Positions 7,194 to 7,915 of a stretch of DNA of 37,846 nt are shown here, piece by piece; position 1 is the first letter of the stretch; each line of letters begins with the position of its first letter. The stretch is from Nitrososphaerota archaeon (GTDB lineage: Archaea; Thermoproteota; Nitrososphaeria; Nitrososphaerales; Nitrosopumilaceae): the NCBI GenBank assembly GCA_018668425.1, contig JABJDB010000098.1:1-37846 (forward strand), read 5' to 3'. The notes below the pieces were generated by a model. It worked only from the letters and a program-made list of their open reading frames with translations, did not search any database and was not told the origin of the DNA. Made by a program: the position numbers and the translations under genes.

Positions 7194-7397
7194 TTAATTT
7201 CTCTTTCCATCACGACCACTAAATTTCCCAAAGGATTGTGAAACATCAAATCCAAGCCAAAAACAATTTTTACTCTCCAAAGAATCATGAAGTTTTTGAT
7301 GATTAACTAATTCAACGTCACCCCAATCACCATCACATAGAAATGGGCATTTTTCCAACATGGAATTTTTTTTACTTCCCTTACACTGAATTAACAA
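7194..7397 (-). CDS. Hypothetical 67-aa protein with non-canonical C-x3-C-x11-H-x3-H motif
   Basis: CPFLCDGDWGDVELVNHQKLH; start codon uncertain. Confidence 0.5.
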   Translation of the reverse strand: MLIQCKGSKKNSMLEKCPFLCDGDWGDVELVNHQKLHDSLESKNCFWLGFDVSQSFGKFSGRDGKRN

Positions 7398-7446: not shown

Positions 7447-7507
7447 GTTTGACGGCTAAAAATTCTAGGGTATGGGTCGGGTTAAGGCAAACGTAAGGCC
7501 GTCAAAC
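7447..7507. ncRNA. Candidate structured RNA/hairpin: GTTTGACGGC...GCCGTCAAAC
   Basis: Perfect 10-bp inverted arms (7447-7456 and 7498-7507) with a 41-nt G-rich loop in an AT-rich intergenic gap. Confidence 0.45.
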
Positions 7508-7698
7508 GAATGACTTGACAATACTAGAACAAATTGCATTAAAAGAAATTGTGTGTATTTTTTGAACACATATTTCTATAAAGTTAATTTTTACACAAAA
7601 GCTAGGCTCAGTTCAAAACAAAAGATAGTTTTTTCAACCCATTTTAGTTAAATTTCAAGACATGTTTTATTTTAAGAATTTTCGAAAATACAAATTAA

Positions 7699-7796
7699 GA
7701 AATTTGGAGGCAGGAATGTTTGCGGGTTTGATATTGGTACGTAACTCCCAAAGAGTCGATGCAATATAATATCAGACTTGCCTGTCTTTCAAATTC
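7699..7796 (+). ncRNA. Candidate structured RNA or 5' leader with two stacked long stems
   Basis: GAAATTTGGAGGCAGG (7699-7714) pairs with CCTGTCTTTCAAATTC (7781-7796) with bulges/GU pairs; inside, GTTTGATATT (7726-7735) pairs with AATATCAGAC (7768-7777). Confidence 0.5.
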
Positions 7797-7831
7797 TAAA
7801 CTATTAATTTTGGATTAATTTTAAGAAAACT

Positions 7832-7915
7832 ATGAATACAAAATTTTACGTTACAATGGGAATTTCAGTTGCAGCCTTGGCTGTAGGATTCATACTTTTG
7901 TTTGGTGATTTTTGA
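7832..7915 (+). CDS. 27-aa single-transmembrane microprotein
   Basis: MNTKFYVTMGISVAALAVGFILLFGDF*; continuous hydrophobic helix; about 35 nt downstream of the 7699-7796 structure. Confidence 0.5.
   Translation: MNTKFYVTMGISVAALAVGFILLFGDF

Follow-up and report, generated by a model that had tools for sequence, protein, structure and literature searches.

A structured RNA of the Nitrosopumilaceae as a candidate independent small non-coding RNA gene with a proposed loop-recognition mechanism

The window, that is the whole stretch of 37,846 nt that was analysed, belongs to an archaeal draft genome of 1.27 Mb. Its plus strand carries at positions 7699–7796 a structured RNA element of about 98 nt, recognised from its fold z-score, covariation, a tree-based test and the direction of its wobble pairs. 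Upstream lie promoter elements and a second conserved hairpin. Downstream, positions 7832–7915 of the plus strand code for a 27-aa membrane microprotein (MNTKFYVTMGISVAALAVGFILLFGDF), a separate gene with no confident Pfam match, whose ATG at 7832 lies 35 nt past the element, as the preliminary description of the locus had stated. The 16-nt arms GAAATTTGGAGGCAGG (7699–7714) and CCTGTCTTTCAAATTC (7781–7796) and the inner stem formed by GTTTGATATT (7726–7735) and AATATCAGAC (7768–7777) were also located where that description had quoted them, and the G+C rise that it had noted in the element is genuine (0.38–0.40 as compared with about 0.25 in the surroundings).

The plus strand of the element gave a folding energy of −32.4 kcal/mol, as compared with −20.1 ± 3.0 kcal/mol for dinucleotide shuffles (z −4.1), and none of 200 shuffles was as low. 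The fold of the minus strand was unexceptional (z −0.2). The overall architecture consists of two helices with a one-sided loop between them and an apical hairpin with a near-invariant CCAAA loop on top. In helix 1, positions 7706–7714 pair with 7781–7789 on the plus strand, 99.3% of the alignment cells being paired, with double changes in five of the nine pairs. Only this inner part of the long 16-nt arms is conserved; the outermost pairs are not, since the outer GAAATTT/AAATTC pairs are lost in relatives, about half of which have TACAA opposite TTCTA. In helix 2, formed by the two strands of the inner stem, double changes occurred in 12 of 13 pairs. The first three pairs of this upper helix (7723–7725 with 7778–7780) are weaker and partly belong to the internal loop, being unpaired in up to 39 of the 81 homologues at one position. 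The loop of 32 nt described inside the inner stem was correctly positioned but is not unstructured, as it holds the conserved hairpin ACTC-CCAAA-GAGT (7744–7756, plus strand; ACUC-CCAAA-GAGU in the RNA). All four pairs of this apical hairpin showed double changes, and its CCAAA loop was 96–100% conserved.

The one-sided internal loop occupies positions 7715–7722 of the plus strand, where the window has AATGTTTG and the consensus is AUG-W-UUG followed by C. Several of its positions were 91–95% conserved among the 81 sequences, and the loop differs between genera. An alternative pairing of GCAA with the UUGC of this side loop was considered and rejected, the pairing being uncompensated where GCAA is changed to ACAG; this alignment, like several others, was judged by eye. 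Besides CCAAA and the side loop AUG-W-UUGC, the near-fixed nucleotides are those flanking the apical hairpin (UA and C-GA-UG). The entropy of the CCAAA loop was 0.11 bits, as compared with 0.80 bits for helix 2.

Compensatory changes in both stems, named in the preliminary description as the evidence that would support the fold, were found in abundance. In an alignment of 29 sequences made by MAFFT only, double changes were present in 19 of 29 pairs, a number equalled by none of 500 shuffles. With 81 sequences double changes were present in 23 of the 29 pairs, and 223 double-change cells were counted, as compared with 61 ± 11 in shuffled and 13–30 in slid controls. The main alignment of 81 sequences had been fitted to the structure, and for this reason a MAFFT-only alignment of all 81 was analysed as well; 91.7% of its cells were paired, and it contained 194 double-change cells as compared with 18–43 in slid controls. 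A tree-based simulation on the structure-fitted alignment of the 81 homologues, which keeps the tree and the number of substitutions per branch, gave 2.4 ± 1.5 double changes that keep the pair and 130 single changes that break it, whereas the real sequences show 57 and 52, respectively; none of 300 replicates was as extreme. In a pair-by-pair phylogeny-aware test under a similar null only one pair was individually significant, so that the support for the structure is collective. The structure-wide tree statistic was chosen after the pairwise result had been seen, and both are reported here. The wobble pairs point to the plus strand (114 G-U as compared with 30 A-C). Taken as a whole, these data leave hardly any doubt that positions 7699–7796 encode a structured RNA read from the plus strand.

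The intergenic DNA was matched in 31 of 61 genomes searched, all of the same genus. With a covariance model the element was detected in 104 of the 250 genomes analysed from the family Nitrosopumilaceae, distributed over four of its 22 genera, and the model gave no match outside this family in a class-wide sample of 200 genomes. In genome G202 the element lies at 782960–783075 of the plus strand. A second model, applied to 28 genomes without a hit, yielded no convincing homologue beyond the four genera. In the GC-rich genome G021, of the same genus as the window, a diverged copy was detected (L196, 1501–1591; E 1e-4, the E-values being from a shortened calibration), which is syntenic and has kept CCAAA with swapped closing pairs. 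No viral copy was found with two exact loop patterns. The element is present in one copy per genome with the exceptions of G009, which has 9% contamination, and G154, where the second match is weak, and this near-universal single copy rules out a mobile or repeated element. The homologues range from 75 to 89 nt in length, and every reading frame is interrupted in at least one of them; the variable length and the interrupted frames count against a protein-coding reading.

Three plus-strand promoter elements precede the RNA. The AGGC box TAGGCTCA (7603–7610) is the upstream one; TAGGC or CAGGC was found upstream of the dyad, at variable spacing, in 66 of 86 loci, as compared with two of the 86 for a control segment lying farther upstream. 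The dyad-like element GATAGTTTTTTCAACCCATTTTAGTT (7624–7649), with the family consensus GATCA-TTTTTTCAACCCATTT-TGATC, is a proposed activator site, many of its columns being 93–100% conserved in the 86 loci. The TATA box TTTTATTTTA (7665–7674) was aligned and found conserved in 30 Nitrosopumilus loci. The dyad lies at a fixed distance from the TATA box, and both are present in all 86 loci, where they move together, 80–88 and 39–48 nt from the lower helix, respectively. When six genomes were searched for the full dyad pattern with up to three mismatches, one match per genome was obtained in five. The window's own dyad has diverged beyond this limit, and in its genome a mismatch-free match to the dyad core occurs only at this site. 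From the usual archaeal spacing between TATA box and start, transcription is predicted to begin near 7697.

The second conserved hairpin, GUUUGACGGC...GCCGUCAAAC (7447–7507, minus strand), is separate from the RNA at 7699–7796. Its core is ACGUUUGCCUUAAC-GACCAU-CCCUAGAAUUC, and it was present in 47 of the 86 loci, other genera included. The z-score of its fold was −2.2 on the minus strand and −1.6 on the plus strand, and one-sided changes make sense as G-U chiefly when the minus strand is taken as the RNA, the strand to which the hairpin probably belongs. It may be an RNA opposite to that at 7699–7796, or the leader of the minus-strand gene at 7194–7397. Further sequences that had looked like additional copies of the upstream element turned out, once aligned, to be unrelated.

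The explanation that we favour, with moderate confidence and from comparative sequence data, is that positions 7699–7796 of the plus strand form, in Nitrosopumilaceae, an independent gene for a small non-coding RNA, which would be recognised through its loops. A transcription factor would bind the dyad, RNA polymerase would start near the predicted site, and the product would be a transcript of about 100 nt folded into a stable hairpin. Counting against this explanation, no intrinsic terminator-like site marks the 3′ end, and the T-runs behind the hairpin are mostly of 3–5 nt. Helix 2 drifts while the loops stay fixed, which suggests the loops as recognition points. In this proposal the helices would provide a scaffold tolerant of sequence drift, and recognition would take place at the CCAAA loop, at the nucleotides below that loop (UA... 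/ C-GA-UG) and at AUG-W-UUGC in the side loop. The recogniser would most likely be a protein, the RNA acting in an sRNP or by protein titration, possibly together with a loop-loop contact with another RNA. Judged by where the conservation is located, recognition by a protein as the main mode is put forward tentatively, at somewhat less than even chances.

The CCAAA loop could also, after widening by the opening of the apical hairpin, pair with target mRNAs, which would make the RNA a trans-acting antisense sRNA. Such a role would fit an RNA that has a promoter of its own and presents a single-stranded, nearly invariant loop at the end of a stable stem, but the invariant stretch is just about 5–7 nt long, the adjoining apical stem covaries, which means that no target holds the stem sequence constant, and the side loop changes between genera. 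We regard antisense action as rather unlikely; the shortness of the fixed stretches and the covariation of the apical stem make recognition by a protein somewhat likelier.

The preliminary description had left two possibilities for the element, a cis-regulatory, riboswitch-like leader and an independent sRNA. In favour of a leader or a riboswitch controlling the 27-aa peptide gene, the peptide starts shortly behind the RNA, directly and on the same strand, in 57 of the 86 loci. However, the peptide gene has a TATA-like box of its own, CTATTAATTT (7801–7810, plus strand), which lies outside the RNA. It was found behind the RNA in 55 of the 57 loci with an adjacent peptide, as compared with none of seven whose peptide has moved to another place in the locus, and a TATA-like box precedes the displaced peptide in five of six displaced copies examined. 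The peptide is displaced in G031, G016, G008, G018 and G015, being about 2 kb away in the first two, and lies on the opposite strand in G034. In genus g41 none of the eight loci shows the peptide in the sequence that was read; in the three of these inspected (L169, L171 and L177) the RNA is followed on the same strand by a gene for a TFB-type (TFIIB-type) initiation factor, checked against Pfam in L169. The reverse situation occurs in G092, where the peptide is present and the RNA is absent from the syntenic site. The separate TATA-like box, the displaced and inverted peptides, the RNA-only genus and the peptide-only genome together indicate two neighbouring genes. With no constant link to a downstream gene, the leader reading is very improbable. 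The independent reading gains from a conserved promoter at near-fixed spacing that belongs to the RNA and from the separability of RNA and peptide; the arrangement of these elements argues that the RNA is very probably an independent gene rather than a leader. Where the two genes are adjacent (57 of 86 loci), coupling by read-through is possible.

Homologues of the peptide were found in 55 loci, with a dN/dS of about 0.18, which corresponds to purifying selection, and the peptide mRNA is probably leaderless. The microprotein, of about 25 aa, follows the pattern FYxxMGISxxALxVGxxLLFG and gave weak Pfam hits to DUF3098 and Microp_archaea.

A strong intergenic hairpin might instead be a processing site or a termination hairpin of a longer transcript. 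This is highly improbable, as the hairpin begins immediately behind a conserved promoter, the upstream gene is on the other strand and a terminator would have no need of a near-invariant loop sequence. In addition, no terminator-like site was found.

A scan of Rfam 15 at the gathering threshold, which the preliminary description had suggested, gave no match for the window and five homologous loci, and nothing above chance appeared in a permissive scan. The models for RNase P RNA (RF00373) and SRP RNA (RF01857) had no match in the window; elsewhere, RNase P RNA was found in genomes G000 and G142 and SRP RNA in G142 only. G202 gave no hit to the archaeal RNase P model, and neither G202 nor G000 gave one to the archaeal SRP model, although these RNAs are expected there; a limit of the fast first look is the probable cause. 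Archaea have many H/ACA and C/D box guide RNAs, and the hairpin with an internal loop could recall one of them, but this reading is largely refuted and hardly credible, given the lack of an Rfam match, the one-sided loop, which belongs to the 5′ strand, faces no more than three weakly paired nucleotides and forms no two-sided pseudouridylation pocket, the finding of ACA no farther than 12 nt from the stem in just six of 81 sequences and at no fixed place, and the presence of box C (RUGAUGA) in two and of CUGA in 27 of the 81. No tandem G-A pairs, as are typical of a K-turn, were seen in the upper stem when the alignment was inspected by eye.

To return to the independent RNA gene, no description of this RNA, or of any regulatory RNA in these archaea, was found in the open-access literature. 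It is conceivable, though we hold it with less than even confidence, that the gene specifies the RNA of an undescribed RNA-protein particle of Nitrosopumilaceae, which would have a dedicated regulator of its own, be recognised at CCAAA and possibly share its intergenic region with a second structured RNA on the opposite strand. The ammonia oxidizers in this family rank among the most abundant marine microbes. Being conserved, present in single copy and preceded by a promoter block of its own, the RNA is a concrete target for experiments in a cultured strain, and the covariance models can be used for the screening of metatranscriptomes.

Among known systems, archaeal H/ACA guide RNAs resemble this RNA in being hairpins with an internal loop, whereas here the two-sided pocket and the ACA box are absent and no K-turn was seen by eye. 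With riboswitches and leader RNAs it has in common a covarying structure, invariant unpaired nucleotides and an ORF downstream; it differs from them in that the downstream gene is inconstant and has its own promoter-like box. The independently transcribed sRNAs of archaea are likewise small, structured and intergenic with a TATA promoter of their own, the present RNA being set apart from them by the lack of an Rfam match, the single copy, the dyad promoter and the restriction to few genera. Tan1, an abundant non-coding RNA of 229 nt from marine Thalassoarchaea (PMC5069720), belongs to another phylum and has another length; compared by description, it is, like the RNA at 7699–7796, an orphan structured non-coding RNA of an uncultured marine archaeal group (PMC5069720).
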